Shown here piece after piece: positions 2,960 through 29,403 of a stretch of DNA of 64,000 nucleotides. Each line of letters starts with the position of its first letter. The first letter of the stretch is position 1. The stretch is taken from the NCBI GenBank assembly GCA_022571215.1, contig JACZYG010000004.1, positions 57,777-121,776 of the forward strand. Reading direction: 5' to 3'. This stretch comes from Fidelibacterota bacterium (GTDB taxonomy: Bacteria > Fidelibacterota > SORT01). The notes below the pieces were generated by a model. The model saw nothing but the letters and a program-made list of their open reading frames with translations, did not search any database and was not told the DNA's origin. The position numbers and the translations under genes are program-made.

Positions 2960-4018
2960 CTAAGAAAATGGCACGGGAATAAATGTGAGAATAAAAATTG
3001 CCATGGAAATGTATCCAAGCCATTTATGGAACGGAGTTAACGGAGCAGTTTCATCGACTACCGGAGGATGCTTCAACTTTATGAACACGAGAATCAAAAT
3101 CGCCCAAAGAATCCAATTTATGGAGAAATATCCGAGAGGAATCATCGGAAGAAACGCCCATTTAGCGATGCTGTCATGTTTTTTGCCGAACAAAGCGTAG
3201 GCAATATGTCCTCCGTCAAGTTGTCCGATAGGAATTAAGTTCAGAGAGGTAACGAGCAGTCCTATCCACCCGGCAAAGGCTATTGAATTAAGGTATATAT
3301 CATATCCGTCAGCGACATTCGGATGGATTATAGAGGTGAGGATCATCATGATGATCGAGTCCCCAAGATGTATTCCCTCGCCTCCCACAGATTCGAGAAC
3401 CTCACTTGTTGATAAGCCGTAATACAGCGCCGGAACTGCCACAATGAATCCCGCAATAGGACCTGCCGCGCCGATCTCGAGAAGGCTTTTTTTGTTTATT
3501 ATCGGAGATTTCATTTTTATGAATGCGCCGAAAGTTCCTATAAATGTTGGCGCAGGAAGAAAATAAGGAAGCGTTGCGGTGACGTTATTTCTCCTTGAGG
3601 CAAAGTAATGACCAAACTCATGAAATAATAGAATCGAAAGCAAGGTCAGAGAGAACGGCAAACCGGAAATGATTCCTTGGAGTGAAAATGGTTGGGTTAT
3701 TCCTTCCATTATGGCGCCTGCTAACGTGGTAGTGACGATCGTGGCGAAAAAGAGCAGAAGATTAACTAAGGGGATACCCGCTATTTCATTGCTCTCGAGT
3801 TTTAGTTTTATTTCAACATCGGTTCCCCGAATAGTAATCGATCCTTTAACGCCGTGACTTGTTAAATCTCTTGAAATATCTTCAAGAGTTGTTGAATCAA
3901 ACATATCCCCGCTTATTGTGATATTGGAACCCACGCTGCTTATACTATTTATCAACAGATGATCTGTCAGCAAATTTGCGATTTTTCTGCCGTATTCTTC
4001 TTTCTCTTGTTCATCCAT
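2960..4018 (-). CDS. Site-2-protease-like membrane zinc metalloprotease (M50)
   Basis: A 352-residue polytopic membrane protease. The catalytic HEFGH motif is at residues 133-137, inside a membrane segment, and the second metal-ligand motif NLIPIGQLDGGH is at 260-271, the paired signature of family M50. These enzymes cleave membrane-bound substrates within the bilayer, often in signalling. About 80 N-terminal residues form a small soluble domain before the first membrane helix. No PDZ domain is visible, so this is not the RseP type; it is closer to the stand-alone peptidases seen in cyanobacteria, plants and archaea. The substrate is unknown. Confidence 0.88.
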   Translation of the reverse strand: MDEQEKEEYGRKIANLLTDHLLINSISSVGSNITISGDMFDSTTLEDISRDLTSHGVKGSITIRGTDVEIKLKLESNEIAGIPLVNLLLFFATIVTTTLAGAIMEGITQPFSLQGIISGLPFSLTLLSILLFHEFGHYFASRRNNVTATLPYFLPAPTFIGTFGAFIKMKSPIINKKSLLEIGAAGPIAGFIVAVPALYYGLSTSEVLESVGGEGIHLGDSIIMMILTSIIHPNVADGYDIYLNSIAFAGWIGLLVTSLNLIPIGQLDGGHIAYALFGKKHDSIAKWAFLPMIPLGYFSINWILWAILILVFIKLKHPPVVDETAPLTPFHKWLGYISMAIFILTFIPVPFS

Positions 4019-4067
4019 TCTATAATGACCAGCTACAATCCGTTATTTGCTAAATAAATTCAACTTC

Positions 4068-4628
4068 TTAAAATTCTACTTTCGGAACAATATCCGCGCC
4101 TGCCGCTGCCTCAAATGGAGTAGCGGAATCAAATCCAAAAAGTCCCGCATAGAGTCTATTCGGAAAAGAACGAATCATCGTATTGTAGGATAACACGACA
4201 TTGTTATATCTCCTTCTTTCAACGGCTATCCTGTTCTCCGTACCGGCTAATTCATCCTGTAGGCGAATAAAACCTTGATCCGCTTTAAGGTTGGGGTAAT
4301 TCTCCACTACTACCAGGAGACGTGAGAGGGCGCCGCTCAGCATGTTATTGGCTTCTATTGCCTCCGATGGCGCTCCGGCTCCTCCTACCCTCGCTCTCGC
4401 ATTCGTTACCGCGGTCAACACTTCCTCTTCGTGAGAGGCATAACCTTTAACCGTCGCAATCAAATTCGGTATCAGATCAAATCTCCTCTGGAATACATTC
4501 TCAACTTGCGCCCAAGCGTTTTTGACGCTCTCGTCACCCGCCACCATGCTATTGAAAGTACCCTTTATTGAGGAATAAATTGTTATAAGCAGTATTAATA
4601 CTACGCCTATAATTATCCATTTTTTCAT
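4068..4628 (-). CDS. lemA: LemA family protein
   Basis: About 186 residues with one N-terminal membrane anchor followed by the conserved LemA coiled region: NAWAQVENVFQRRFDLIPNL, then VKGYASHEEEVLTAVTNAR, and FNTMIRSFPN-type residues (here YNTMIRSFPNRLYAG) near the end. A possible TTG start lies at 4640, but GGAG at 4635-4638 sits best before the ATG at 4628. LemA proteins are membrane-anchored helical proteins of uncertain function, frequently encoded beside TPM-domain proteins, as here two genes upstream. Confidence 0.92.
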   Translation of the reverse strand: MKKWIIIGVVLILLITIYSSIKGTFNSMVAGDESVKNAWAQVENVFQRRFDLIPNLIATVKGYASHEEEVLTAVTNARARVGGAGAPSEAIEANNMLSGALSRLLVVVENYPNLKADQGFIRLQDELAGTENRIAVERRRYNNVVLSYNTMIRSFPNRLYAGLFGFDSATPFEAAAGADIVPKVEF

Positions 4629-4677
4629 CATTCTCTCCAACTGTTATTTATGACTCGTCTCATATCTTTGTCCAAGC

Positions 4678-5406
4678 CTACATTTTATCCACATTTCTAA
4701 AAATTGAACGAATTGCGGTCATATACTCTTCCATCAACTCTATCAATTCTGAAGTTGTCCATTTACCGATACCTAATTTGATGTTTTGCAGATCCTGAAA
4801 TAAGCCTTTCCGCAGTTCAAATGTCTCTTCTACTATGTTGTACAACTTAGATGAATCCGTCCCCTCGTTTTCTATTTTTTTAAGATATAGCGTACCGTTG
4901 AATATAGCTGAAAAGGTCGGGAGAGATTGAGATATCAGATCAATAAGCTCATTTCGATTGCCTTTAGTTTTCATGAATCCTTGACGAAGACTCAGCAATT
5001 TTGCCTTTAGTTCATGTTCAACCTGCACCCGCAACTCATTATCGTTTATAACTAAATCTCCGAGGAGGTTTTTTCCGAAGACCAAAACGTTTGCCTCTTT
5101 CATATTGTGAAATTCAAGCGGGAATGTATCAAGCGAAGAGTTCAGATAAGATTCCGTTAGAATCAGCGGAGCTGATATTCCTCGTTTTTCCCAATTGTCT
5201 AAATAATCCCAGACTCCTGACAGGAATTTTAAACCTTCAGATTTTATTACAACCAGGAAATTAATATCTGACTTTCCCTGTACATACTCTCCTCTTGCGC
5301 CACTTCCATAAAGATAGATTGACAGCAGGTTGGAACCAAATATGGACTTTGTACCTGATGAAAATTCTTCATAAACTTCTTCTGGATTTACAGGTTTCTT
5401 GAACAT
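4678..5406 (-). CDS. Nucleotidyltransferase-fold protein with SDIN in place of SDxD
   Basis: A 242-residue protein with an N-terminal Pol-beta-like nucleotidyltransferase fold. The GSGARGEY...SDINFLVV stretch (about residues 33-54) matches the GS-x10-DxD signature, except that the second acidic residue is Asn. The rest is helical, like the substrate domain of minor nucleotidyltransferases. It lies between LemA and the TPM-domain gene. Loss of one metal-binding Asp suggests altered or no catalysis; I have an impression that SDIN is shared by a wider family, but cannot verify it here. Function unknown. Confidence 0.65.
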   Translation of the reverse strand: MFKKPVNPEEVYEEFSSGTKSIFGSNLLSIYLYGSGARGEYVQGKSDINFLVVIKSEGLKFLSGVWDYLDNWEKRGISAPLILTESYLNSSLDTFPLEFHNMKEANVLVFGKNLLGDLVINDNELRVQVEHELKAKLLSLRQGFMKTKGNRNELIDLISQSLPTFSAIFNGTLYLKKIENEGTDSSKLYNIVEETFELRKGLFQDLQNIKLGIGKWTTSELIELMEEYMTAIRSIFRNVDKM

Positions 5407-5429: not shown

Positions 5430-6265
5430 TTAATAGCCTCCACCGGCGCCACCGCCACCGCCCATACCTCCCCCGAAACCGCCAAATCCTCCTCCCCCGA
5501 AACCGCCGCCAAATCCTCCGGAATGAAACCCTCTATGCCCTCCGCCGAGCATACTCATCAATAAGAGACCACCAAGCAGACCGCCTCTTCCTCTCCTCTC
5601 CCTCTACCCTTTCGTCCACGACCCAAAAGACTGGAAATGATGAAAAACAGCATCATTATCTTAAATATGCCTATCCCTCCCCCTCTTTTACGTCCTCTTT
5701 GATTTCTATTCTGTGTCAGCGCTGAATAGTTTCCCGTCAACTTTACTTTGGCATCTGCGGCAATTATTGAAGCTATCGCCGCCAATCCGAGTGAAAGTCC
5801 GGAATCATGATCATTTTGCCTCAACGAAGGAATAAGATATTTATCTCTGATCTCTCCAACCAATCCATCGGGTAATATCCCCTCAAGACCATACCCGACC
5901 TCAATCCGTATCTTCCGAGCGTCTACCGCATTGAGTATCAATATACCGTTGTCTTTTCCCTTCTCCCCAATTCGCCATTTTTCGAAAAGTCTTACGGCAT
6001 AATCCGTATAATCCATGCCATTTAAACTTTTTACGGTTACCACAACCACCTCAGCGCCCGTCTTCTGTTTCAATTCTCGAGACAGACTTTCCATTGCGTT
6101 CTTCACGGTTGGGGAGAGTACATTTGCAAAATCATTCACAAATCCGGTCGGATTGGGAAATTCGATCTGAGAATATAGACTAAATGGCGTCAGCGCTGAT
6201 AATAGTATTAATAAGTAAAAATTATTTCTTCTGGCGTTAGATGATAATTTGAATCGGTTTATCAC
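5430..6265 (-). pseudogene. TPM-domain (YgcG-type) membrane protein, frameshifted near the C-terminus
   Basis: The uninterrupted frame runs 6265 to 5558 and encodes a signal peptide, a TPM domain (GFVNDFANVLSP start, GILILNAVDARKIRIEVGYGLEG core) and a basic linker with a membrane segment. It then runs out of frame in a purine-rich stretch (GGGAGAGGAGAGGAAG, near 5590-5605). In the neighbouring frame the reading continues as GRGGLLGGLLLMSMLGGGH and a long Gly/Phe-rich tail ending AGGGY with TAA at 5430-5432, exactly the tail TPM proteins have. So the intact gene was 5430-6265. The shift is either a real mutation, slippage in the purine tract, or a sequencing error. TPM proteins commonly neighbour LemA. 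Confidence 0.8.
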
Positions 6266-7326
6266 TTGCTGATTACCACTATTCCTGTCTTATCAGATTC
6301 AGTTACCTTTCCGATTACGGCTGCCTCGGGGGAATCGTCCGACATTAGTTCCTTCAAAAGTTCATCAGCTTTCTCTTCCGGAATCGAAATGATAAGACCG
6401 CCGGATGTTTGAGGATCGACCAGCAACCATCGGTATGCATCACTTACAGCGGAATCAAATGTAACAATATTCTCAAGGGATCTCATATTATCTTTTGACA
6501 TTCCGGGTTTAAATCCTTGTTCTGCCGTCTCAACAGCCTTTTCAAAATACGGAACAGCCGACGAATTAATCTCAATGGAAAGCTCATTTCCGGCTAACAT
6601 CTCGTTCAGATGCCCGAGCAGTCCAAATCCGGTAACATCAGTGCAGGCGTTTGCGTTATGTTTAAGCATCAGCTCAGATGCCGCCTTATTCAGTACAACA
6701 TTACGCTGAACCGCACTGTCTAACCATACTGAATCGAGAGTGCCTTTTTTAACACCGTTGAAGAGTACGCCTGTGCCGATCGGCTTACTAAGTATCAGAA
6801 CATCACCATGTACTATGGAGGAATTTCTTACAATGTTATCTGGATGGACTAAACCTGTAACTGCTAATCCGTATTTCAGTTCATTGTCTTTAATTGTATG
6901 CCCACCGACCGTAACGGCTCCAGATTCTAATACTTTTGTAGCTCCCCCGTTTAATATTTCGCTGAAAATTTCGTTTGTGATTCCTTTTTTCGGGAAGTTA
7001 CACAAGTTGATCGCGGTTATAGGTTTTGCACCCATAGCATAGACATCACTCAAAGCGTTTGCTGCGGCAAGTTGCCCGAATAAAGAGGGATCATCCGTCA
7101 TAGGCGTGATATAATCCGCCGTCTGAACGAGGGCTATCTCATTCGTAATACGGTAAACAGCCGCGTCCTCGTTGCCGTCAAACCCGATTATAAGATTCTC
7201 GCTCGAGCCGGTCGGCAAGTCTTTAAGCAGTTCCTTTAAGTCCGCCGGACTTAGTTTGCATGCTCAGCCGCCTGACGAAGAAAACTTAGTAATTTGAATT
7301 TTTTCGTTAATATTAATCCTCTTCAT
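6262..7326 (-). CDS. selD: Selenophosphate synthetase SelD, with in-frame UGA (selenocysteine) at codon 21
   Basis: SelD makes selenophosphate, the selenium donor for Sec-tRNA and selenouridine. The uninterrupted frame starts only at 7218 (LPTGSSEN), which would lack the catalytic N-terminus. Reading upstream in frame through a TGA at 7264-7266 gives an ATG at 7326 and residues TKFSSSGGUACKLSPADL, a perfect SelD N-terminus with Sec at position 21 where other SelD proteins have Cys or Sec, followed by the catalytic Lys24. Downstream are the ATP/Mg motif GFDGNEDAAV and the TADYITPMTDDP motif. Full length is 354 residues. No strong SD is seen before 7326. It overlaps the TPM gene by 4 bases. Confidence 0.9.
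7237..7253 (-). promoter_or_regulatory. Candidate bacterial SECIS hairpin in selD
   Basis: Ten bases after the UGA, UAAGUCC (7253-7247) pairs perfectly with GGACUUA (7243-7237) around a GGC loop. A short stem with a small G-containing loop roughly 17 bases past the UGA is the known geometry for SelB-dependent recoding in bacteria. Confidence 0.6.
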
Positions 7327-7455: not shown

Positions 7456-7824
7456 TTACTTAGACAATAATTTGGAGATCTTATCCATTACGTTGCCTAT
7501 TTGAAATGGTTTAGGGAAAAAACCGGCAGCGCCTTCAAGTATCGGTTCATCCATGTCATCTACAGCATAGCCGGACATGAAAATAAATTTAGGACTTCCG
7601 TATTTGTTTCTTACTTTCTTAAATAGATCGATACCGCTCATCCCGGGAAGGGAAATATCGCTTATAACGAGTTGGAAATCATTTTCTATAATCATTTTAA
7701 GAGCTTCTTCCGCATCAGACGCAGATTCTACATCGTATCCGCTTTTATTAATAATCCTGCTCATAAGTTCTAATATGGCTAAATCGTCGTCTACCACTAA
7801 AACTTTTCTGCCAGGGTTATTCAT
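7456..7824 (-). CDS. Stand-alone receiver (CheY-like) response regulator
   Basis: A 122-residue single receiver domain: acidic pocket VVDDD at 11-15, phosphoacceptor Asp56 (ISDISLPGMSG), conserved Ser/Thr in FMSGY and Lys in FPKPF. It has no output domain, so it acts by protein contact or in a phosphorelay. Its start overlaps the stop of the upstream PAS sensor by four bases (ATGA), so the two are translationally coupled and very likely partners. Confidence 0.9.
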   Translation of the reverse strand: MNNPGRKVLVVDDDLAILELMSRIINKSGYDVESASDAEEALKMIIENDFQLVISDISLPGMSGIDLFKKVRNKYGSPKFIFMSGYAVDDMDEPILEGAAGFFPKPFQIGNVMDKISKLLSK

Positions 7825-10376
7825 TTTCTCCCCGCTTTATGGATGTCTACTATTTCTCTTCCCTGAGCATATAACTTAGTCTCAAACGATGTAATGTTCA
7901 ACAATTTGTTGACGAGATCGGATATTTTGGTAACTTGTTCAGGAATGTGTTCTAATATTTGCGGTTCTCTCTCAATGTTTTCTTTATTCGCAGCTGATGA
8001 AAGAAGTTGTAACACTTGTAAAGGTTGATTGAATTCATGAGCGACAGCGGCGGCAAGTTTTTGTATAGCTTCGAGCTTTTCCTGTTGCAGGAGATTCTCT
8101 CTTAATTCATTTCTTTCGATAAGCATTCCGATCCGGCGTGTTATACTATGGATCATATCTACTTCCTCTGAGAGAATATCGATATCATCATTATAGCCGA
8201 TTTTAAGGATTCCTCTCAGTTTTCCTGAAACCCCGATATCGCTCCCTGCCATAAAATCTTCGTCATAATTTTTTTTGTTTATTATGTAATCTAAGTCATC
8301 AAAAATTATTCTCGCCCATGCCTTTTCAGGATGCCGCAGACCGCTCGGGACTATTTTCGTTATCTCTAAAAACATCTTTGATATCGGCATTTCCTCTTCA
8401 ATCAAATTACTTATACGTTGTAAGCACGAGAGCTCTTTTACTCTGTAACTCAAATCAAGAGCTAACCGATCCTTCTCTTTTTGATTCCTGATTTGATCGG
8501 TAATATCTTTCTGTACTGATATTGAATGTAGAAGATTTCCGTCTCTATCCCTCACTGAGCTAGCGCTCAGGAGCACGTTTCTCCTTTCACCCTTTTTTGT
8601 AATGATCTCCATCTCTCTTTCAGCAAGTATTCCAGTTTTATTCCAAACAGCTATATTCTTTTTCACCTTGCTGTGCACATCTTTCGGATAGATTATCATT
8701 AGAGGCTTACCTATTAATTCTTCTTTTTTGTACCCGAGAGCCTTTAATGCCATGATATTTACATCAAGTATTTCCCCTTTAGGAGAAATCATATAGCAAT
8801 ATTCAGGTTCATTTTCGAAAAATTGCTTGAATTTATACTCACTCCTCTTTAACGCCTCTTTCGCAAGTTTATTATCCGTCATGTCCACACCATAGATAAT
8901 CAAATTTTTAGAAACAATATCTTTTACGAATGTAAGTAAGTAAGATTTATTACCAATATCCTCTTCAAGCAAAATCGGTTTCCTGCTTGAGATATTTTTT
9001 ATTTTTGAAGAAGTAATCCCCATCAGTATTGAGGTTAAGTTTTTGCCCACGATATCTTTTCCGAATAATTTTTTTGCTGCCGAATTAGCAAATAACAAAA
9101 CTCCCGAATAATCCGCCCGAAAAACAGGACCGGGATTTTGTCGTACAATGTAAGCCTCTCTTCCTAATACGGATTCAGTTCGTTTCCGTTCCGCGACCTC
9201 TTTAGAAAGCCGAATATTTATTTCAGCAAGCTTTTGGCGAGTACTGTCCACACCATAGATAATCAAATTCTTAGAAACAACATCTTTTACTAATGTAAGC
9301 AAGTAAGATTTATTACCAATATCCTCTTCAAGTAAAATCGGTTTTCTGCTTGAGATATTTTTTATTTTTGAAGAAGTAATCCCCTTCAATATTGATATTA
9401 AGTTTTTACCCACGACATCTTTTCCGAATAATTTCTTTGCCGCCGGATTGGCAAATAACAAGACGCCCGAATAATCCGCTCGAAAAACAGGACCTGGATT
9501 TTGTCGTACAATGTAAGCCTCCCTTCCTAATATATCTTCAGCGCGTTTCCGATCCGCGACCTCTTCAGAAAGCCGAATATTAGTCCCGGTTAGTTCTGCG
9601 GTTCCGGACTTTATTCTCTCTTCAATTTCTTCGACAGTTTGCAATAATTTCTCTTCAGCGTTTTTCTGAATAGTGATGTCATGTATAATTCCGATGAAAA
9701 TTTTCTGACCCGAAAGCTCTACCTCACTCACACCGAGATAAATGGGAAATATCGTGCCATCCTTCTTTTTACCAAGCTCTTCTCTGCCAATACCGATAAT
9801 ACTGGCTTTTCCTGTGCGTAAATATTTTTTAACGTATTTTTTATGTAAACTGCTGTCAGATCCAGGCATAAGAATCTTTACGTCTTTCCCGATTAGCTCA
9901 TTCGACGAATATTTAAACATTTTCTCGGCGGCAGGATTTACGTATTGTATAATTTCATTGGCGTTCATTGTAATTATACCATCGACGAGAATATTAAAAA
10001 TTGAATTAGTTCTATCTTCACTCTCCCTAAAAGATTGCTTCAATAACTCGTTCTCAGTTCTATCGACTATATATACCTCTAAAATTCCTTCTCTGCCGGA
10101 TATATGATATTGTACATAAAGTATATTCCCATTATTTCTTATAAGAGTATCATTTAACGTAACCGGTTGGGCGGTATCCCCGCTAAGATCAATATTCTGA
10201 ATTATATGATTGTAAATCTTTCGTAAGATGCCGGAAGAGAGAAGCGCTTTTTTATTTTTGTAACCCAGAAGCCTCGTCAGATTTGAATTAAATACAGGCT
10301 CTATGCCATTCTTAGGATAACTTATGTATCCTAATTTTAGAGCATTAATAAGCTTACTTTTTGTATAGAACGCCAT
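7821..10376 (-). CDS. Multi-PAS sensor with histidine-kinase H-box region but no ATPase domain
   Basis: About 851 residues from ATG 10376 (an in-frame TTG at 10415 lacks an SD). It has five PAS-like units: about 15-110, 120-245 (with NANEIIQYVNPAAEKMF), two nearly identical tandem copies of 121 residues at about 275-515, and a fifth at about 520-640, then a GAF-like region and a dimerisation/phosphoacceptor helix with AVAHEFNQPLQ. The protein ends about 65 residues after that His. The N, G1, F and G2 boxes of HATPase_c are absent, so it cannot bind ATP in the usual way. It may be phosphorylated in trans or act as a scaffold. Soluble; no membrane helices seen. Coupled to the receiver gene downstream. 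Confidence 0.82.
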   Translation of the reverse strand: MAFYTKSKLINALKLGYISYPKNGIEPVFNSNLTRLLGYKNKKALLSSGILRKIYNHIIQNIDLSGDTAQPVTLNDTLIRNNGNILYVQYHISGREGILEVYIVDRTENELLKQSFRESEDRTNSIFNILVDGIITMNANEIIQYVNPAAEKMFKYSSNELIGKDVKILMPGSDSSLHKKYVKKYLRTGKASIIGIGREELGKKKDGTIFPIYLGVSEVELSGQKIFIGIIHDITIQKNAEEKLLQTVEEIEERIKSGTAELTGTNIRLSEEVADRKRAEDILGREAYIVRQNPGPVFRADYSGVLLFANPAAKKLFGKDVVGKNLISILKGITSSKIKNISSRKPILLEEDIGNKSYLLTLVKDVVSKNLIIYGVDSTRQKLAEINIRLSKEVAERKRTESVLGREAYIVRQNPGPVFRADYSGVLLFANSAAKKLFGKDIVGKNLTSILMGITSSKIKNISSRKPILLEEDIGNKSYLLTFVKDIVSKNLIIYGVDMTDNKLAKEALKRSEYKFKQFFENEPEYCYMISPKGEILDVNIMALKALGYKKEELIGKPLMIIYPKDVHSKVKKNIAVWNKTGILAEREMEIITKKGERRNVLLSASSVRDRDGNLLHSISVQKDITDQIRNQKEKDRLALDLSYRVKELSCLQRISNLIEEEMPISKMFLEITKIVPSGLRHPEKAWARIIFDDLDYIINKKNYDEDFMAGSDIGVSGKLRGILKIGYNDDIDILSEEVDMIHSITRRIGMLIERNELRENLLQQEKLEAIQKLAAAVAHEFNQPLQVLQLLSSAANKENIEREPQILEHIPEQVTKISDLVNKLLNITSFETKLYAQGREIVDIHKAGRK
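8882..9582 (-). repeat. Tandem 363-bp duplication inside the PAS sensor gene
   Basis: 8882-9244 and 9245-9582 are near-identical at the DNA level, with a period of 363 bp (121 codons), each encoding one PAS unit starting REAYIVRQNPGPVFRADYSG. Most differences are single bases, so the duplication is recent or kept homogeneous by conversion. Confidence 0.9.
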
Positions 10377-10596
10377 ACGGCACTGCTTTCTGTTACTATT
10401 TAACTCTTCCAGCAAAAATATATCTTGCTACAAATTTATTCATAAAAACTTGGCAAAGGTAACATGCAATATTGATAATAACAATACATTACTAATACAG
10501 TAATCTTACATGTTTTGTATGAATTTTTGTACTTAAAATATACATCCCTTCAAGCAATATGAAGGGATGTATCCAAATTGATGTAACTATGGTTAC
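10377..10596. other. AT-rich intergenic stretch upstream of the PAS sensor
   Basis: No coding signal. It contains an imperfect inverted repeat (TACATCCCTTCA at about 10541-10552 and TGAAGGGATGTA at about 10560-10571) that can form a stem of about 12 bp; it has no long T-run. It could terminate the gene fragment at 10597. Confidence 0.4.
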
Positions 10597-10797: not shown

Positions 10798-11150
10798 ACG
10801 ACTTTATCCACATAACCATCAATTAGATAATTTCAATGTTGATAACTTGTGAATACTTAAATAATTATTTAAAATAAACGTTAAAATATCGAAGGCTCAT
10901 CACCGCATATATAGCTTATAAATAAGGACATTATACCGCATAGTTAAATCATCACTTTAATAATATGACTGTTGATAACTAACACAGCTTCTTGTATTGA
11001 CTTCTTTAGATATATTGCAATTTCTGCCTTAATTATGAAAATAAAGCCAATAAATATCATTGTATTAATTATTACACTAATATTGCCTTTCTTGTCTTAT
11101 TATAAACTATGCTTAATAGAAATTTAGATTGTATGAAACCAGGGAGAACC
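10798..11150. other. AT-rich intergenic region before the DUF3179 gene
   Basis: No gene is supported. The stretch is very AT-rich with many stop codons in all frames. A TTGACT hexamer near 10997-11002 could be a -35 element, but no convincing -10 follows at 17 bases. The SD AGGGAG at 11141-11146 serves the start at 11151. Confidence 0.4.
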
Positions 11151-12197
11151 ATGAATTTAAGTTATACCATACTTTTACTTGTCAGCATGATTTTGGTCAA
11201 CGCAAAAACTGCTTTTACACAAAGGGGATCATACGAAATAATAGAAGGCGAAAAAATGTATAATATCCTTCCTCGTGATCGGATTCCTGCCATAAATAAT
11301 CCTAAATTTAAATCGGTCTCGGAAGCCGAGAAGTTTATGAATGATGATGAACTCGTCTTGGGATTAGTCGTCAACGGTGATGCAAGGGCTTATTCCACCT
11401 GGCATTTGGACAGGCATGAGATAGTCAACGATTACGTAGGTGAAGCTTATGTTTCTGTAACGTGGTGACCTCTCTGTTTTACCGGCATCGTGTATGTCCG
11501 TGAATTTGCAGGTAAAGTGAACAGTTTCGGCGTGTCAGGAAAACTCTGGAAAGACGCTCTTGTTATGTACGACAAAGAATCCGGTAGCTATTGGAGCCAC
11601 ATCACGGGAAAAGCCATTAAGGGCAAATATAAAGGAACCCAACTGAAGTCATTGCCGGTTCAGCATCTGAAGTGGAAAGAATGGAAAAAGATCCACCCTG
11701 ATACAAAAGTGCTTGTTAAGAGCAGGTTTACAAACAGATCGACTTATGATAGTTACAACAAATCAAGAGACAGGCTCGGTATTGTTGGAACAGTGAATTT
11801 CGATAGAAGACTCGATGGAAAAGATAAAGTCCTCGGACTCATTGTAGACGATATACCACTTGTATTCCCTCACAAATATTTTGTTGGGTTTAACTCAGCG
11901 AACTATTCAATCGCCGGAGTTGACCTTCTTGTCGTATTCTCCAAAGACGCTCAAGTCGCGACCGCTTATAATAGAAAAGTCGGTGAGCAGCTACTGACAT
12001 TCGAAACCGCTGAATCTTCAGAAGGGCATTACATCAGAGATTTAGAAACAGGCACGCTTTGGAATGGATTGAGCGGCGAGGCTGTAGAAGGAAAATTGAA
12101 GGGACTCAAGCTTGAATCCTTAGTGGGAACCCAAGCCTTTTGGTTCGGGTGGAGGGGATTTTACCCGAGAACAGTAATCTGGAATCCATCCGGATGA
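11151..12197 (+). CDS. DUF3179 family exported protein, candidate selenoprotein (UPLC motif)
   Basis: The frame 11151-12197 is open except for one TGA at 11466-11468. Upstream of it: signal peptide (MNLSYTILLLVSMILVNA) and HEIVNDYVGEAYVSVTW; downstream: PLCFTGIVYVREF, NSFGVSGKLWKDALVMYDKESGSYW. In DUF3179 proteins this region reads VTxCPLCxxGIVF, so the TGA falls exactly on the first Cys of CPLC, giving U106-P-L-C109. That, with selD in the window, makes Sec insertion far likelier than a nonsense mutation. The second part repeats the DUF3179 theme with no further stop. SD AGGGAG precedes 11151. Full length 348 residues. Function of DUF3179 is unknown; a UxxC pair suggests a redox role outside the cytoplasm. 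Converges on gltX with one base between stops. Confidence 0.8.
11478..11516 (+). promoter_or_regulatory. Candidate bacterial SECIS element in the DUF3179 gene
   Basis: Nine bases after the UGA, UUUACC (11478-11483) pairs with GGUAAA (11511-11516); after a single G/A mismatch, GCA (11485-11487) pairs with UGC (11507-11509), leaving a 19-base apical loop with several G. Position and size fit a bacterial SECIS, but the stem is shorter than in selD. Confidence 0.45.
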
Positions 12198-14050: not shown

Positions 14051-15196
14051 CTATTCAATATCAAATGAATCCTCTTCTGTTTTATCACTATCGCTCTCTT
14101 CTTCCAACAACTTAATGTTCGTTGTTATCTCGGTTTCCTCTTCAGAGCGTATCCGCAATTGGAGGTCCGTAGGGAAATCAGAGTTTACCAGCGCCGTTTC
14201 TACATCTATCCTGCCCGACTTATAAAGTTGATATAATGACTCATCGAAAGAGATCATTCCTTGCCCCGCAGAACGCTCAATGGCGCTCTTGAGGGTTTGA
14301 AATTCTCCTTTAAGTATAAGGTCGGATATCCGTGAGGTAAGCGTCATAAACTCTACCACCACAAATCGTTCTTTTCTTCTTTTAGCTGTTATCAGCCTTT
14401 GCGCGAGTACAGCCTGAAGATTTTGTGAAAGTTGCAGCCTCAGCATATCATGCATGTCATGCGGAAAAAATCCCATAATCCTGTCCAAAGTTTGAGGAGC
14501 GTTATTTGCGTGCAATGTGCCCATGACGAGATGACCCGTCTCGGCGAATGAAATAGCCGCCTCCATTGACTCTCTATCTCGTATCTCACCGATTAGAAGT
14601 ACGTCGGGCGCCTGCCTTAATGCGCCCCTGAGAGCGGAGCGATACGATTCGCTGTCCGTACCAATCTCTCTTTGAGTAATGATGCTCTTTTTATGCTCAT
14701 GAATAAATTCAATAGGATCCTCGATAGTAATAATATGCCCTTCTTTATTGCTGTTTCTATGGTTTATCATTGCCGCTAACGTTGTAGACTTGCCGGAGCC
14801 TGTTCCTCCTACTATAAGAACAAGACCTAAATTCAACATTGCGACGTCTGCAAGTTGCGACGGTAACTTCAGACTTTCTAAAGTGGGTAGCTCGGTGGAA
14901 ATCCGCCTTGCCACCATTCCCGGCGAGCCTTTTTGCACAAAGAAATTCAGCCTGAACCTTCCTACTCCTTCCACGAACAAGCTGGAGTCGAAGTCGTTCT
15001 TTTCTTTGAAAGTTTTGTACGCGTCACCCGTAATAAGATGAGAGATCATTTCCTCTATCTCTTCCGCTTTCACAATCCGTTCCGCAACGCTATGTATGCT
15101 CCCCTTAATTTTAAAATAGACCGGCGAGTCCGCAGTGATAAACATGTCGGAAGCCTCTTTCTCCGCCATAAGGTTAAATAACGGTGTCAGATCCAT
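14051..15196 (-). CDS. pilU: PilT/PilU-type pilus retraction ATPase
   Basis: A 381-residue hexameric secretion ATPase that powers pilus retraction. It shows Walker A GGTGSGKSTT (about 134-143), the Asp box TIEDPIEFIHEHKKS, Walker B GEIRDRESM, and the His box ETGHLVMGTLHANN. The acidic C-terminal tail and the overall pattern are closer to PilU than PilT, and the canonical PilT gene is directly upstream, so the pilU name is used as a best guess. Confidence 0.88.
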   Translation of the reverse strand: MDLTPLFNLMAEKEASDMFITADSPVYFKIKGSIHSVAERIVKAEEIEEMISHLITGDAYKTFKEKNDFDSSLFVEGVGRFRLNFFVQKGSPGMVARRISTELPTLESLKLPSQLADVAMLNLGLVLIVGGTGSGKSTTLAAMINHRNSNKEGHIITIEDPIEFIHEHKKSIITQREIGTDSESYRSALRGALRQAPDVLLIGEIRDRESMEAAISFAETGHLVMGTLHANNAPQTLDRIMGFFPHDMHDMLRLQLSQNLQAVLAQRLITAKRRKERFVVVEFMTLTSRISDLILKGEFQTLKSAIERSAGQGMISFDESLYQLYKSGRIDVETALVNSDFPTDLQLRIRSEEETEITTNIKLLEEESDSDKTEEDSFDIE

Positions 15197-15226
15197 TATG
15201 ACACCTTACTCGAATCGAGGTCTTTG

Positions 15227-16291
15227 TTATTCAATTGTGGCAAGCCCCGCAAGCTTGGCGACTGATTTTGCGTCGCGAGCATGTTTATACGCATCTTCAG
15301 GCTCAATCAATCCTTCTTTGATAAGATTAGCCAGCGATTGGTCCATAGTGACCATCCCTATTTTCATACTCGTTTGAATAATCGAATCGAGCTGAAATAT
15401 CTTATCTTCACGAATCATATTTGAAGCCGCAGGCGTACAGATAAGGATCTCAAAAGCGCCGACTCTTCCTCCTCCTTTTTTGGGTAGAAGAATTTGGGCT
15501 ACCACTCCGCGGAGTGATTCCGCAAGCATTGTTCTCACCTGACTCTGCTCTTCAGCCGGGTATTGATCGATTATTCTGTTCACTGTCTTGGCGGCGGAAT
15601 TGGTATGCAGAGTGCCGAAAACCAAATGCCCCGTTTCTGCCGCCGTTATAGCCAATGAAGTTGTTTCAAGGTCTCTTAATTCGCCTACGAGGATAACATC
15701 CGGATCTTCTCTCAGCGAAGACCTTAAAGCATTAGAGAATGATAGGGTATTAGTATGAAGTTCTCTCTGGTTTATAAGGGACTTTTTAGGCGTATGGATA
15801 AATTCTATCGGATCTTCGATAGTTATCAGGTGATATTCAAAATTACTGTTAATATAATCTATCATTGTAGCGAGAGTCGTGGATTTGCCCGAACCGGTAG
15901 GACCGGTGACTAAAATCAGCCCATTATCAAGAGACGACATATCTTTCAAGATTGGAGGCAGACCAAGCTTCTCAAAACTCAGAATTTCAGAATTTATCAC
16001 TCTTAAAACAGCGCCCTTGCCTAATCTGCCGTAAAAGACATTGATCCTGAATCTGCCGATACCGCTCAACTCTCTTGAGAAATCCACTTCCATCGTTTCC
16101 TCAAGGATCCTCCTCTGGTCTTCGGTCATTACATCATATATCAACCTGTCAACCTCTTCCTTTTCAAGGGGCGGCGAATCAATTTTTTTCATTTTACCGT
16201 CAAGTCTTAACATCGGCGGAGCGCCAACCGACAAATGAAGATCAGACCCCCCTTTGTCCACGGCAAATTTAAGTAGCTCGAATATTTCCAC
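15227..16291 (-). CDS. pilT: PilT pilus retraction ATPase
   Basis: A 354-residue retraction ATPase: N-terminal PAS-like domain (LHLSVGAPPMLRLDG), Walker A TGPTGSGKSTT (about 132-142), Asp box IEDPIEFIHTPKKSL, Walker B GELRDLETT and His box ETGHLVFGTLHTNSA, and the usual ending with DAKSVAKLAG. Neighbour to pilU and to the secretin gene. It hydrolyses ATP to depolymerise pilin fibres into the inner membrane. Confidence 0.93.
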   Translation of the reverse strand: MEIFELLKFAVDKGGSDLHLSVGAPPMLRLDGKMKKIDSPPLEKEEVDRLIYDVMTEDQRRILEETMEVDFSRELSGIGRFRINVFYGRLGKGAVLRVINSEILSFEKLGLPPILKDMSSLDNGLILVTGPTGSGKSTTLATMIDYINSNFEYHLITIEDPIEFIHTPKKSLINQRELHTNTLSFSNALRSSLREDPDVILVGELRDLETTSLAITAAETGHLVFGTLHTNSAAKTVNRIIDQYPAEEQSQVRTMLAESLRGVVAQILLPKKGGGRVGAFEILICTPAASNMIREDKIFQLDSIIQTSMKIGMVTMDQSLANLIKEGLIEPEDAYKHARDAKSVAKLAGLATIE

Positions 16292-16326
16292 TTATTTTCT
16301 CAACGCTCTATATTGGGGACTCAAAA

Positions 16327-17658
16327 TCAATTTGAAGTCAGATCCGGGAAATACTGAATTCTTGGAGTGATGAATATCAGTAATTCGCTTCTCCTCTTTT
16401 CCAAAGATTTGTGAATGAAGAATTTACCCAAGATGGGTATGGCGCTAAGATAGGGAACTTTTTTATAGTTGATGAATTCGTCTTCCTTTATCAAACCGCC
16501 AATTGCGGCGGTATTGCCGGCTTTTACCATTATCTTGGTATCGGCTTTCCGCTCAGAAGTTATAGGTCTATCATTATCAGGACCTGTAAATCCCGTTATA
16601 GCCTCCACTGATGTGGTAATCGAAAGAAGTACATAATCATTTTCCGTTACATGAGGGATTATCTTTAATGATATTCCAATATTCTTATCCTCAAAAGTCA
16701 ATGTTTGTATAAGAGATGACCCGGTAAGTCCGGCAGTATTCTGAGATTGAGGGACTGCAACGGGTATCACTGTTAGGACCTCCGTGAACGCTTCTTGATT
16801 ATCTAAAGTTGAGAGCGTCGGATTATTTAGAAGTTTTGATTTCCCATTTGTGCGCAATAATTCCATGACAATTGAAAATTCCTGGAGTGTCAGTGTTGCG
16901 AGATTCAAACCACCCCAGGTGCCAAACAGTGGAAAACCACTAGATTGTCCCGCTGTGCCGGCTGATACCCCGATTGTTGAACTCGGACCGCCAGCTATTT
17001 TTGCTTTAGAAGTCCAATTTATACCGATGTCCTCATTTTCAGATATAGAAGTTTCGACAAATTGCACTTCTATTGTAATCTGTGGAATAGGTACATCCAA
17101 TGCTGCGATCACTCTACTCACCTTGGGAATATTTTGAGGCACATCAGTTACGATCAGGATATTCGATGCTCCTGTATTTCGGGAGTCACCTCCCTTTACT
17201 GCCATTCCGAAGGTCGTAATTTCCCCTTTTGAGCTGATTACGCCCGCCAACGCTTCTTTTACTTTATCTGCGTCAACATAGTTAAGTTTGTATACTTTTG
17301 TCAGCTTGTCACCACGAATCTCTTGCCCTGCCGGTTTTACCATTATGATGCTGCCTTCCTGAAACCAATCATAACCATTCATTTTGATTATAGCATCCAA
17401 TGCTCTTTTAACTTTCACATTTTTTAATGAAACCGTAATTTCTCCTTTAACTTCAGGACTTGTGATAATATTTAATTTGTGTTTTTTTGCTAATAGCCGT
17501 AATACATCCTGGATGTCAGCGTTCTTTAATTCAATGCTTACCGCATTTGTTCTGCTTTGCAATATTAGATTAGCGTTAGCGCTGTTTCCGGCTATTGAAC
17601 CGCAGAATAACACCGAGAATGTGATCATTTTCCCTATAATTAGACTATACTTATTCAT
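16327..17658 (-). CDS. pilQ: Secretin (PilQ/GspD family) outer-membrane channel
   Basis: A 443-residue secretin. Signal peptide at 1-29; N-terminal STN-like domain (IELKNADIQDVLRLLAKKHKLNI, about 41-63); an N1 domain (KVYKLNYVDADKVKEAL); then the secretin core with VEVQFVETS-type strands, TLSTLDNQEA and the closing VPYLSAIPILGKFFIHKS signature near 400. It is short for a secretin: no AMIN domains, one STN and one N1 only. It forms the multimeric channel through which a pilus or pseudopilus substrate passes. Overlaps the pilP-like gene by eight bases. Confidence 0.9.
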   Translation of the reverse strand: MNKYSLIIGKMITFSVLFCGSIAGNSANANLILQSRTNAVSIELKNADIQDVLRLLAKKHKLNIITSPEVKGEITVSLKNVKVKRALDAIIKMNGYDWFQEGSIIMVKPAGQEIRGDKLTKVYKLNYVDADKVKEALAGVISSKGEITTFGMAVKGGDSRNTGASNILIVTDVPQNIPKVSRVIAALDVPIPQITIEVQFVETSISENEDIGINWTSKAKIAGGPSSTIGVSAGTAGQSSGFPLFGTWGGLNLATLTLQEFSIVMELLRTNGKSKLLNNPTLSTLDNQEAFTEVLTVIPVAVPQSQNTAGLTGSSLIQTLTFEDKNIGISLKIIPHVTENDYVLLSITTSVEAITGFTGPDNDRPITSERKADTKIMVKAGNTAAIGGLIKEDEFINYKKVPYLSAIPILGKFFIHKSLEKRRSELLIFITPRIQYFPDLTSN

Positions 17659-18142
17659 CTTCTTGATTTCCTCCTAATTCGAGTCTGAGCTTTGTGTTCC
17701 CAGATTTTAAAATCGCGTATTCCTCGCCTATCTCAACTAGCTTGTACCCCTTTACGTCACTATTTAATTCATATATCCCACCACCGATTATTGCCCATTC
17801 ATCGACTATACCGGATAATATCAAACTGCTATCCTGAACATCAACCTCCACAAAATCTCCTTCGGGACTTCTGCTGAGAAGCTCCAAAAACTGCAGGTTG
17901 TAGAATGGATCGTTGAAGATCTCTCCGGCAAAACTTACCGATAAATTTCCCTCACCCGGAGACAAAAAAACAGCCTGTTGAACTTGTTCTGCCTTATCCT
18001 GCAAAGGTAATATGGATACAGGAAGATTTTTAACTACAGGGATGTTCGATATTCCTCCTTCATCACTTGTCAAGAGATCATAAAAATAATACGATGCTGC
18101 TAAGCCAAGTAGAACCAGTAATATCTTTTGTCTTGTCGCCAA
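17651..18142 (-). CDS. PilP-like pilus assembly protein
   Basis: A 163-residue protein with one N-terminal membrane helix (residues about 6-24) and a small C-terminal beta domain (VEVDVQDSSLILSGIVDEWAI...GYKLVEIGEEYAILK) resembling PilP/GspC homology regions, which link the inner-membrane PilMNO complex to the secretin. It sits precisely where pilP lies, between pilO and pilQ. It lacks the lipobox typical of proteobacterial PilP. Identification rests on position and fold pattern rather than on close sequence similarity. Confidence 0.6.
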   Translation of the reverse strand: MATRQKILLVLLGLAASYYFYDLLTSDEGGISNIPVVKNLPVSILPLQDKAEQVQQAVFLSPGEGNLSVSFAGEIFNDPFYNLQFLELLSRSPEGDFVEVDVQDSSLILSGIVDEWAIIGGGIYELNSDVKGYKLVEIGEEYAILKSGNTKLRLELGGNQEDE

Positions 18143-18154
18143 CTCTTTACACCC

Positions 18155-18745
18155 TTACGTATTAGTCAGTTCGGATTCATTTTTTATGAGATATAGATAC
18201 ATCACTATTTGAAATGAGAGGACAGGCAGTTCATCAACTTTTCGTCTGATGCGAAGATCTTCAACTGAATATGGTATTCCCTCATTCTTCATCCCATCCA
18301 TAAACTTTACAAAATTCAAGTATTCTCCCCTTAATCTCAGATCGAGAGGAAGTTTCACTAATTCATTTACAGATTCTTTATTGTAACGGTGTTGATCGTC
18401 AAATGAATTTAAGGACAATTTAGGAGCCAACGTCTGTACTTGTAATCCGTGCTTTTCCGCCTCCGTTCGAATTTGCAATAATATAGAGTCTACGGTGAGT
18501 GTTGAACCGAGTTGCTCCTTCAATAACATCACCGCATCTCTTACATCCTCAAGGTCATCTATCAGTTTACTGATACTACCCTCCATCTCTTCGACCTTTT
18601 CCATTTGATTTTGAATGAATTCGATCCTTGCCTCAACGGGTTCAAGCCCATCCGATATAGGAAAATGAATAAAGAAATACCAACCGGCAACGAGTATCAG
18701 CAACACTCCTACCAACCCTATCAGCTTTCTTCTAACCTCGTTCAT
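18155..18745 (-). CDS. pilO: PilO-type inner-membrane pilus alignment protein
   Basis: A 196-residue protein with a single membrane helix (about 8-27), a coiled coil (about 38-80, EARIEFIQNQMEKVEEMEGSI), and a ferredoxin-like C-terminal domain containing LRLRGEYLNFVKFMDGM, the PilO hallmark region. PilO pairs with PilN in the periplasm. Lies directly after the PilM-PilN fusion gene, in the order M-N-O-P-Q seen in type IV pilus operons. Confidence 0.85.
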   Translation of the reverse strand: MNEVRRKLIGLVGVLLILVAGWYFFIHFPISDGLEPVEARIEFIQNQMEKVEEMEGSISKLIDDLEDVRDAVMLLKEQLGSTLTVDSILLQIRTEAEKHGLQVQTLAPKLSLNSFDDQHRYNKESVNELVKLPLDLRLRGEYLNFVKFMDGMKNEGIPYSVEDLRIRRKVDELPVLSFQIVMYLYLIKNESELTNT

Positions 18746-18760
18746 CTACCAATACCCATT

Positions 18761-20791
18761 TTATAAAAAGCAGTTAATAACAAAAAACATAGCGCGCGCG
18801 CTTCCTGTTCCCGAAAAATTAGATTCTACTATTTCTACATTAGCGTATAGGTTCGTGCCTAAAAGAGAATCATGGAAATCCTTGATTATCTGCCGGGAGA
18901 AAAAATCGTCCGCGAAGATAGCGCCCGTTAATTGAACGAAGGGTACTCCCTTGTTTTGATCCGCTTGACTTACGCTTGTTCTGATATCTACGTGCGATAA
19001 CATCATCTCAGAGGGAGATAAGGCGCTAAGCACCTTAAGCTGAGATCTCAGCCATTCGGTCTTCTTCTTTTCTTTATCCATTATCCGGACTAATCCTTGT
19101 AACGCCCCGATCTCTTTACTTGAGGATAAAAATTGCTGCTGAATCGGAGATAGTGATGCTAACTCAGTCTCCTTCGACAGAGCTTCGTATTTCTTGCCAT
19201 CCAACTCCCTTTTAACGGAAAAAGTGAATGAAGAGAGTATTATCGTGAGAATAATGGTCGATATCGTAAATAATCTTTTCGCCACGCCGAATGAAATATC
19301 ATCTTTCGCATCTTCAGGCGCAATATTCGGACCGTCAAAAAAGTTTCGCGCCATACCCGCCGCCACAGACAACGATGAAGCTATTTTGGTGAACATTATA
19401 GGCAATACGGAATCTTCATCGATTTCTATTCCAAGCAGGGGATTGATCCGTTCGATACGCTTCTTGGTGACTTTCCTTAACAGCAGACCCATGTTATATA
19501 GATCTGCGCCCTGACCCGAAATGTATAAGATATCCGGTTCTTCTATTTCAGGAAATTTCTTTTTGAAGTAATTTATTGAGCGAAGCACTTCTTCGACTAT
19601 CCTGTCAACCGAACCGCTCATTTGTTGAGAAATACTGTTTATCTCTTTATCTTCATCGGTATACGAGTCTATCAGCTCAAGTGGTATTCCATACTTATCA
19701 ATAAGCCTCTTCGCCATTAATTCGCTCACGACGGCGGTTTTTCCGCGGAATGTGATACTTCCCTGCAATCCCTCCACCAATTCTTCAACGCCGACGGGTA
19801 CCTCTCTTATAAATTGGATCATACCCGCGCTTACGAACGTAATTGACATCTTATCCCAACCGATATCTATGATGACGAAAGTAGATTCCCCGTCATCCTT
19901 CCCATTGTGTTTAAGAATATCTAAGATAGCGAACGGCGCAGCGGTGACCTTACTTATCTTTATTCCCGATTTTTCGATCACTGCGATGCTTCTTTCTAAG
20001 TACTTATTCTCTGCTGCAAAGAGGGTTATCAGGGATGTCTCGGATTTTTCATTTCCTTTCTCATGAACGATGTAATCGTACTGAGAATTTTCTAACGGGA
20101 AGGGGATGTTTTTCTTTGCTTGCCACGCAATAGCCTGTATAATCTCTTTTTTGCTTAATTTTGGAAGGACAATTTTTTTTATGGCAGTATGAGGACCTGA
20201 AACCGATAAAACAATCTTGTTATTTTTAAATTTTTTCTCCGACAATATTTTGCTTATGATATTTGATATCTCCTTACTGCCTTTTGCGCCGGATTCACCG
20301 ATTATTTCGCATGCTACAAAATGAGAAAGAACTTTCCCTTTAAATTGATTGGATATCCTTACAATTTTTATGAAATTTCCACTGATATCTATGCCTATGA
20401 CATTCTGCTCGCCTTTTAGCCATCTTACAAAATAACCGATAGCTTTACCGAAAAACGATTCCTTTTTAGCCGCTGAAGCATTCAGAAATTGAGATTGTAT
20501 CTTCGATTCTTCAATCTGAGAGGATACAATCTTGACCGGTTTTTCTTCAACATAATCATCTTGCGCAGGGGCAGACTCTATCGGTTCATTCGCGGCATCC
20601 TCCAAATCATCAAACGGGTCTCCGGGAATATTAACGATTTCCTCTTCAACCATCTCCATCTCTACCAGCGTTTCAGATTCTTCGACAAAGGAAGCTGTCT
20701 CACGCTCAACAGGAGACTGCAACCTGTCCCTCTTGCGTAACGTCTCTAATAACTTGACGCTGGGATTATCTAAATGAGGATCGTTAGACAT
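18761..20791 (-). CDS. PilM-PilN fusion protein
   Basis: A 676-residue fusion. Residues 1-127 are acidic and probably disordered. About 130-480 is an actin-like PilM domain (VIGIDISGNFIKIVRI at the phosphate-1 strand; TFVIIDIGWDKMSITFVSAG; DILYISGQGA). A single membrane helix follows (about 505-525), then a coiled coil and a PilN-like periplasmic domain to the end. Normally PilM binds the cytoplasmic tail of a separate PilN; here both are one chain, similar in logic to GspL of type II systems. It overlaps the GspA-type ATPase gene upstream by eight bases. Confidence 0.82.
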   Translation of the reverse strand: MSNDPHLDNPSVKLLETLRKRDRLQSPVERETASFVEESETLVEMEMVEEEIVNIPGDPFDDLEDAANEPIESAPAQDDYVEEKPVKIVSSQIEESKIQSQFLNASAAKKESFFGKAIGYFVRWLKGEQNVIGIDISGNFIKIVRISNQFKGKVLSHFVACEIIGESGAKGSKEISNIISKILSEKKFKNNKIVLSVSGPHTAIKKIVLPKLSKKEIIQAIAWQAKKNIPFPLENSQYDYIVHEKGNEKSETSLITLFAAENKYLERSIAVIEKSGIKISKVTAAPFAILDILKHNGKDDGESTFVIIDIGWDKMSITFVSAGMIQFIREVPVGVEELVEGLQGSITFRGKTAVVSELMAKRLIDKYGIPLELIDSYTDEDKEINSISQQMSGSVDRIVEEVLRSINYFKKKFPEIEEPDILYISGQGADLYNMGLLLRKVTKKRIERINPLLGIEIDEDSVLPIMFTKIASSLSVAAGMARNFFDGPNIAPEDAKDDISFGVAKRLFTISTIILTIILSSFTFSVKRELDGKKYEALSKETELASLSPIQQQFLSSSKEIGALQGLVRIMDKEKKKTEWLRSQLKVLSALSPSEMMLSHVDIRTSVSQADQNKGVPFVQLTGAIFADDFFSRQIIKDFHDSLLGTNLYANVEIVESNFSGTGSARAMFFVINCFL

Positions 20792-22575: not shown

Positions 22576-23790
22576 TCAAAGACTAAAGTCAAAAGAATAT
22601 TGCTTACCGTCAGAAGAATATAGGACGACCGTAAAACTTGTCCCGGTCATGTCCTGAAGAACAGCTGATTTGTTCTGGAAATCACGCATTATAAAAGTTC
22701 TTGTCTGATTATCAGGTAAAACGAAATTTGTCATACCGTTTCCTTTCGAATCAATCCGGTCTGAACTGCCTGCCATTTTTGGAAACGACGTTTCTGAAAA
22801 GACGGTCACAGCATTAACGATCAATTGGTTATATTTCGGACCTTGGGTTGGACTATAGTTACCGGGATAATCAGCTCTATAATCTATGATGGTGATAATT
22901 TGTCCTAAAAGATTATGCAATTGAAAATGTACTTGCTCGTTTGAAGAACCCACCAGTGTTGCGCTTCCTGTAACGAATACCAGGTTTGAGATGTTTGTCA
23001 CTCGAGGTACTGCGACGCCACCTTCCGCCGCCAATATGCTTTTTATATTCGTTTCTATGCCGCCCGCAGGCTTGAATGAAAGAGTTCTTGAACCACGCGG
23101 TACACCGCTGAACGAATAAGTCCCTTGTAATCCGGTCGTAACCGAGTCTTTTTGGAGAAAGGCTGTACCATTTGGTTTCCAGAGATAGACTTTACCGGCT
23201 GCCATCGGATTCCCGTCAATAGTATACGCGCTTCCATAAACGGTACTGACTAATTCACTCTTTAGAATTTCAAGATCGATATCCGCATCATAACCTGTTC
23301 CTCCTACACTACCGTCCGCTCCTTCGCTCGTGATTTTTCCATATACGCTGTCTCCTGAAGCGTTTACGGTTTTGCTATCGGTGTATATATAAGCGTTTCC
23401 CCAACTATCCTCGATTGACGTAGCCGATCCTCCCTCGAACGACTTTGATAAATACGGCCCTCCCCATCCATAGGTAATAAAGTAGGTCGTATTATTTGTT
23501 AAGGAGGGTTGAGTACCCTGAACCATCAGATCTGTCAGCGTGGCGGGCATGATACCCATATCTCCATAATAGCCGAAATCTGCTCTCCTGCCGTTGATGA
23601 TAAGAGATGGATCTCCGGCTATCGCTCTCTTTATTGTTTCCATCTCCAACAGAGTTGCATCCGCCTTTTGCGCTTCAAGCGTACGAATAACAATATTTAT
23701 GCTAATTGATGTCAAGATTCCGATGAGAGCCATCACTATGATCAGCTCCATAAGAGTAAAACCATCTTTACGGCGTGAAAGATACATCAT
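22576..23790 (-). CDS. GspG-like prepilin with C-terminal beta domain (copy 1)
   Basis: 404 residues. Prepilin leader RRKDG|FTLMELI with the conserved Glu at mature position 5 and a long hydrophobic helix. The head has the GspG signatures GWGGPYL, DSWGNAYIY and SEGADGSVGGTGYDADI, the last being the calcium-site loop of major pseudopilins, plus FGYYGDMGIMPATL. Unlike normal GspG (about 140 residues), about 200 further residues follow: a carboxypeptidase-regulatory-like segment (AAGKVYLWKPNG...YSFSGVPRGSRTLSF) and a beta sandwich ending in FVLPDNQTRTFIMRDFQ. Its start overlaps the stop of the next prepilin gene. Presumably a pseudopilus subunit or tip adhesin. Confidence 0.82.
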   Translation of the reverse strand: MMYLSRRKDGFTLMELIIVMALIGILTSISINIVIRTLEAQKADATLLEMETIKRAIAGDPSLIINGRRADFGYYGDMGIMPATLTDLMVQGTQPSLTNNTTYFITYGWGGPYLSKSFEGGSATSIEDSWGNAYIYTDSKTVNASGDSVYGKITSEGADGSVGGTGYDADIDLEILKSELVSTVYGSAYTIDGNPMAAGKVYLWKPNGTAFLQKDSVTTGLQGTYSFSGVPRGSRTLSFKPAGGIETNIKSILAAEGGVAVPRVTNISNLVFVTGSATLVGSSNEQVHFQLHNLLGQIITIIDYRADYPGNYSPTQGPKYNQLIVNAVTVFSETSFPKMAGSSDRIDSKGNGMTNFVLPDNQTRTFIMRDFQNKSAVLQDMTGTSFTVVLYSSDGKQYSFDFSL

Positions 23791-24964: not shown

Positions 24965-24987
24965 GCTGCTCCTCTACAAATTTTATC

Positions 24988-26193: not shown

Positions 26194-26203
26194 TATTTCA
26201 CAC

Positions 26204-27808: not shown

Positions 27809-27845
27809 TTGAGAGTCCTCGATTAAGCATGTTACGCTTTAATAA

Positions 27846-28373: not shown

Positions 28374-28378
28374 CTTTA

Positions 28379-28825: not shown

Positions 28826-28870
28826 CAGTAATCATTGAAATATGGGGTCTTCCGACAGCTCCTCATATTT

Positions 28871-29361: not shown

Positions 29362-29403
29362 CTTTTCTCCTGATAGTGACAGTTTATGGACGCTTAAAAT
29401 TCA

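Follow-up and report, generated by a model that had tools for sequence, protein, structure and literature searches.

The window, i.e., the whole stretch of 64,000 nucleotides that was analysed, contains a gene of the DUF3179 family (PF11376) that stays in a single reading frame when one internal TGA is read as selenocysteine (Sec, U). In the same window lies selD, which also has an in-frame TGA. The following features are referred to in the text.

6262–7326, minus strand: selD, with an in-frame TGA at codon 21 (7264–7266); motif and sequence read by eye
11151–12197, plus strand: predicted selenoprotein gene of the DUF3179 family (PF11376), encoding 348 residues before the stop; single frame with TGA read as U, PF11376 match
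11154–11216, plus strand: hydrophobic N-terminal helix, likely an export signal; sequence read by eye, helix 3–22 in the structure model
11349–11690, plus strand: predicted N-terminal Rieske-like domain, about residues 67–180, with the Sec-bearing β-hairpin; structural comparison
11466–11468, plus strand: in-frame TGA at the first position of CPLC, predicted Sec106; codon shared by 80 of the 81 single-TGA genes fetched
11475–11477, plus strand: Cys109, the +3 cysteine of UPLC; found in 65 of the 80 Sec genes located
11481–11501, plus strand: predicted bacterial SECIS hairpin; constrained energy −6.7 kcal/mol, stem-pair changes in relatives
11826–12170, plus strand: predicted C-terminal Rieske-like domain, about residues 226–340; structural comparison

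The TGA at 11466–11468 is the sole internal stop of the full-length DUF3179 gene; the terminator is itself a TGA, and no further TGA occurs in frame. A purine-rich AGGGAGA (11141–11147) lies upstream of the ATG at 11151. Under translation table 11 the gene is split into two open reading frames (ORFs), 11109–11468 and 11490–12197. The read-through protein matched PF11376 with an E-value of 1.2e-78 and 264.9 bits (cut-off 27). The alignment ran over profile positions 1–292 of 292, i.e., the family match extends across both sides of the TGA, as the preliminary description had stated. Its further claim of a lone in-frame TGA at the first Cys of CPLC in an otherwise intact gene was likewise confirmed from the frame and the profile match. 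The resulting UPLC at residues 106–109 corresponds to the family motif Cys/Sec-P-L-C/T, and the window protein contains no Cys or Sec other than at positions 106 and 109. A domain search at E 0.001 found DUF3179 alone in this protein and no second domain, thioredoxin included. The same genome carries a second DUF3179 gene (L010) with an ordinary CPLT motif.

Among the 22 largest clusters of genes neighbouring the Sec genes we found no recurrent redox neighbour. Those of the clusters that extended beyond close kin were DUF3179 itself and, in four loci, a group with PAS domains. Among the loci fetched, it is only within the window's own family that gltX and PilT-type genes adjoin DUF3179. On the opposite strand and upstream of the DUF3179 gene, the window encodes a protein rich in PAS domains that matches HisKA (7821–10415, minus) and is adjoined by an ORF that appeared response-regulator-like by eye (7456–7824, minus). 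The blastp cluster of the PAS gene also has members close to the Sec gene of L049, L057 and L182, the PAS type being checked against Pfam for L057. Further along the window, nine same-strand ORFs (22576–30430, minus) have products that start, as judged by eye, with a type IV pilin- or pseudopilin-like segment, and four of them, at 382–534 residues, carry an extensive C-terminal portion. Nearby, at 14051–20791, lie genes resembling PilT, secretin and PilM. The nine pilin-like ORFs are apparently an expanded pseudopilin array.

Machinery for selenocysteine is encoded in the genome of origin. A search for selA, selB and selC, which the preliminary description had proposed as a check, found selA (565.7 bits), selB (338.1 bits) and tRNA-Sec (66.3 bits). 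The description of selD as a UGA gene also held, and its product is a predicted selenophosphate synthetase and itself a predicted selenoprotein. In the window's phylum (most likely Neomarinimicrobiota), 14 genomes have a TGA copy of DUF3179; every one of them contains selA, and tRNA-Sec scored above the cut-off in 13 of them, the 14th reaching 46 bits against 47. At a threshold of 1e-65, which may miss split genes, selB was matched in 11 of these 14 genomes, with no such match in G062, G189 and G190. As 167 of the 245 genomes of the phylum contain selB at 1e-65, this gene is a weak discriminator.

DUF3179 was found in 36 of the 245 genomes of the phylum, and 16 genes in 14 genomes contain one in-frame TGA. 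All 16 TGAs hit the first Cys of the motif, which is divergent (UGVC) in L063. This short, divergent DUF3179-like gene (3833–4678, minus, in G193) shares its contig with the tRNA-Sec-like match of G193 (46 bits, just below the cut-off), about 7 kb apart. The four closest relatives found, with 69–82% identity, share the TGA of the window gene, and a sequencing error is therefore very unlikely.

We fetched 81 single-TGA genes, i.e., the 16 from Neomarinimicrobiota, 25 from Chloroflexota (6 single-TGA genes and 19 others among the matches listed) and 40 from an Acidobacteriota group (40 fetched of the 59 single-TGA matches listed). The latter denotes the phylum of G247 (recorded as Acidobacteria), with one member, G248, recorded as Acidimicrobiia. 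The TGA occupied the codon of the motif's first Cys in 80 of the 81 genes, although these counts are not independent, since many fetched genes are near copies (e.g., L061/L062 or L225–L230). The remaining gene, L263, had no locatable motif and was left out of all Acidobacteriota-group counts; L269 (UENC) is the least sure assignment. Two DUF3179 matches of the Chloroflexota group, G522:C42:24011-24940 and G360:C73:386615-387361, contain a single in-frame TAG instead of TGA.

The preliminary description had also proposed comparing TGA with Cys at this position in homologues. Close relatives keep the TGA, and other homologues have Cys at the codon aligned to the in-frame UGA. With U written as C, positions 106 and 109 were invariant Cys in 82 rows, for which 81 of the 120 listed hits were used. 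Purifying selection acts on the part downstream of the TGA, where dN/dS was 0.066–0.071 (3 of 10 pairs with computable dS); upstream it was 0.075–0.149 (6 of 10 pairs). Among the matches listed, 14 database proteins with at least 70% identity were 210–235 residues long, at 60–67% query coverage. Two of them (P0002 and P0012) were inspected, and both start directly 3' of the TGA position. This suggests that the C-terminal pieces in the protein database are cut DUF3179 Sec genes.

Published rules for bacterial SECIS elements place the apical loop 16–37 nt after the UGA with a G within the first two loop positions, and ask for an upper stem of 4–16 bp with an energy of at most −7.5 kcal/mol (PMC13188914). 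The window hairpin has the apical loop CGTGT at 11489–11493, starting 20 nt past the UGA, and one C-C mismatch in its stem. Its spacing and loop fit these rules, whereas its energy of −6.7 kcal/mol falls short of the threshold; 4 of 40 synonymous shuffles were as low, and it is among the weaker hairpins of the Sec genes. For the candidate SECIS of the preliminary description, a hairpin of a type enriched in TGA genes is predicted, but it is weak in the window copy.

The SECIS-like hairpin is enriched in the TGA genes of DUF3179. In a scan by the published rules, −7.5 kcal/mol was reached by 70 of 79 Sec genes compared with 26 of 68 Cys genes. A first comparison had found at least 6 of 8 stem pairs kept in 15 of 15 Sec genes, as opposed to 2 of 95 Cys genes. 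With the register fixed at seven pairs, 46 of 79 Sec genes kept at least 6, compared with 3 of 69 Cys genes. In this register the share of cells that paired was 77% for 64 distinct Sec sequences and 40% for 69 Cys sequences, and shuffled controls for the Sec sequences gave a mean of 62% and a maximum of 66% (1000 shuffles). G stood at loop position 2 in 78 of 79 Sec genes versus 40 of 69 Cys genes. Across the Sec genes, stem positions 2, 3, 4, 6 and 7 were occupied by more than one kind of standard pair. Pairs 4 and 6 each failed in 26 of the 64 distinct Sec sequences in the fixed register, and some Sec genes outside it fold the hairpin in another register. Gene by gene the signal was modest, i.e., at most 5% of a gene's own synonymous shuffles were as low in 12 of 40 Sec genes versus 4 of 68 Cys genes. 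L063 (UGVC) was left out of the SECIS counts, and one short Cys row was left out of the shuffle test and the rule-based scan.

Because the position of the UGA, the sel machinery, selection, the C-terminal database fragments and the RNA hairpin agree, we predict that selenocysteine is almost certainly incorporated at residue 106 of the window protein. The proposal of a selenoprotein gene in the preliminary description is thus backed by the machinery, the conserved TGA, the Cys in homologues and the enriched hairpin. Were the TGA a true stop, the gene would be decayed, split or made as two separate fragments, in keeping with the two ORFs obtained under table 11 and with the C-terminal pieces that public gene predictions give for close relatives. 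We consider this highly improbable in view of an identical TGA codon throughout three phyla in all but one of the fetched genes, the purifying selection downstream of it, the hairpin enriched in TGA genes and the selA gene in every genome of the phylum with a TGA copy. A reading of UGA as Cys or Trp via another route would agree with the Cys that homologues have at this position. However, UGA still appears to terminate genes here, as in the DUF3179 gene itself; moreover, a tRNA-Sec gene and a SECIS-like hairpin are present and selD has its own UGA at codon 21, so that this route can hardly be the right one.

The preliminary description knew of no DUF3179 selenoprotein on published lists. This was not borne out, since the DUF3179 domain-containing protein (pfam11376, UxxC/T) is tabulated as a selenoprotein family in 2022 (PMC9312934) and in 2026 (PMC13188914), the former giving Zhang and Gladyshev 2007 as source. 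We hence rejected DUF3179 as a new selenoprotein family. Some members are annotated by NCBI as 'DUF3179 domain-containing (seleno)protein'. The window gene belongs to the same Pfam family as the tabulated proteins and has the same UxxC motif, whereas the UxxA and UxxV forms found here fall outside the UxxC/T listing. In the accessible text of PMC9312934 and PMC13188914 there is no mention of Marinimicrobia, Chloroflexi, Acidobacteria or Rieske, and a literature search combining Rieske with selenoprotein or selenocysteine found no title on the subject. Sec forms of DUF3179 recur in Neomarinimicrobiota, Chloroflexota and Acidobacteriota. The gain over the published lists is this distribution, the optional +3 Cys and a predicted Rieske-like fold.

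At the +3 position, 65 of the 80 located Sec genes have Cys and 15 have Ala, Thr or Val. A strict UxxC rule held at first, as all 41 Sec genes from Neomarinimicrobiota and Chloroflexota have Cys there, and was dropped after the Acidobacteriota group, whose 39 located Sec genes have Cys in 24 and, within L231–L268, Ala in 11, Thr in 3 and Val in 1. Since +3 is Ala, Thr or Val in these 15 genes, the UxxC pair is no rule. What stays constant across the sequences is the first motif position (Sec or Cys); a pair with +3 is optional. The preliminary description had argued from a UxxC pair to a redox function; the pair itself stood in the first two phyla, but not throughout the Acidobacteriota group, and of the 72 Cys rows used for the tree 39 have CPLT.

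A quick tree built from 112 rows shows the Sec and Cys forms interleaved. It requires 6 changes between them, 2 of which are imposed by starred branches, and contains a starred clade with 39 CPLT rows but no Sec. The tree was built without the Acidobacteriota Sec genes and without L063, short fragments and a second frame of L049 that was spurious. As three UPLT forms are among these Acidobacteriota genes, we do not regard Sec and +3 Thr as mutually exclusive on this basis. One Ardenticatenaceae genome has a Cys copy (CPLC) and a Sec copy (UPLC) in tandem (L084/L177), and L218 of the Chloroflexota group has two adjoining Sec-type DUF3179 genes on opposite strands of one genome. From the interleaved tree, the Cys/Sec tandem and the adjoining Sec copies, Sec and Cys therefore seem to have been exchanged within the family. 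Sec/Cys exchange also occurs in other redox selenoproteins.

A structure model of the DUF3179 protein was obtained with a pLDDT of 93. The hydrophobic N-terminal helix makes it likely that the protein is exported. Both halves are predicted to be Rieske-type folds that arose by internal duplication: hhalign matched the two halves with a probability of 99.85 and an E-value of 1e-30, and the C-terminal domain appears as a duplicate of the N-terminal one without the Cys motif. The likeness to Rieske proteins is structural only, with a best Foldseek E-value of 0.016. Sequence-level homology was rejected after hhalign of each half against 20 Rieske domains of these genomes gave no significant match (probability 0.3% for the N-terminal and 10% for the C-terminal half). 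A sequence search of solved structures yielded no credible match either, the best being a haemoglobin at E 0.047. Compared with Rieske-type ferredoxins and NirD (2qpz, 1vm9, 3c0d, 2jo6), DUF3179 consists of two fused domains, has no sequence-profile match to them and has Cys/Sec only at 106 and 109; the Rieske ligand motif CxH...CxxH is absent from the window protein. Due to this absence, the fold would serve as a scaffold and not as an iron-sulphur electron carrier. In the predicted structure, residue 106 ends a β-strand within a hairpin (strands 99–106 and 111–116). VIA-align superimposed residues 48–148 of the model on chain positions 2–96 of 2qpz with 92 aligned. With the ligand numbers assumed for 2qpz, arithmetic on the alignment ranges would place the Sec-bearing hairpin away from the Rieske ligand loops.

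Among 120 listed hits of P0120, an archaeal Cys homologue, AhpC-TSA domains occur together with DUF3179 in 29 proteins, P0120 included; in the latter the AhpC-TSA domain precedes DUF3179. All 29 fusions have CPLC, i.e., they are Cys forms, and the six that are named by organism are all archaeal (Nitrososphaerales, Thaumarchaeota, Woesearchaeota) and not of the window's branch. Because of these fusions we consider thiol chemistry for DUF3179. Oxidoreductases with a thioredoxin fold of the TlpA/AhpC-TSA type, fused to Cys-type DUF3179 elsewhere, may be electron partners, although their fold differs from that of DUF3179 and the window gene has no such fusion. A thioredoxin-type partner of the Sec protein is accordingly put forward tentatively, at somewhat less than even odds.

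With a constant first position and a variable +3 position, residue 106 is likely the nucleophile and Cys109 an optional resolving group. We propose that SelB would pause at the hairpin and insert Sec at residue 106. The mature protein would consist of two Rieske-type β-sandwich domains, of which the first alone keeps the reactive residue. The Sec106 selenolate might then attack an oxidised substrate, and Cys109, where present, could resolve the intermediate by forming a selenenylsulphide. An external thiol may take over this step in proteins with UPLA, UPLT or UPLV. A thioredoxin-type partner (TlpA- or DsbD-like) would finally restore the selenol. A redox enzyme is marginally favoured for the DUF3179 Sec protein. 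To the explanation as a whole, i.e., a conserved UGA gene encoding a Sec106 protein that is likely exported and likely a selenol-based oxidoreductase, we assign a probability of about 0.6.

Alternatively, Sec106 and conserved neighbours (His89, Glu90) could bind a metal, e.g., copper, in a carrier or redox site where Sec tunes the affinity and is not a nucleophile. Like Cys106, the residues His89, Glu90, Asn93, Asp94, Asp141 and Trp148 vary little or not at all, and the metal site stands as a reading because His89-Glu90 and Asp141 are conserved. Rieske folds usually hold a metal cofactor, and a +3 residue that may be Ala, Thr or Val means that a Sec-Cys bond is not needed. Nevertheless, the fusions observed involve thiol oxidoreductase domains, with no metal-domain fusion among the 120 listed hits, and the Sec-bearing hairpin would lie off the Rieske ligand loops if the assumed ligand numbers hold. 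We hence consider a metal site unlikely.

Within the selenol-based reading, DUF3179 may tentatively be seen as the first selenoenzyme family on a Rieske scaffold: a tandem of domains that lost the cluster and uses a single catalytic Sec or Cys, often without a resolving Cys, in an exported protein. We hold this model-based proposal to be possible, though somewhat less probable than not. If true, it would represent a new kind of exported redox enzyme that is spread through largely uncultured phyla. In the window's phylum the Sec form is found in 14 of the 36 DUF3179-bearing genomes among 245 searched. As the Sec form recurs in this way, gene prediction that takes UGA as a stop splits these genes into two. 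A listed family name becomes a testable protein, for which the Rieske-like fold predicted here, the duplication, an optional Cys at +3 and fusions to thioredoxin-type domains provide ideas on the function of DUF3179.
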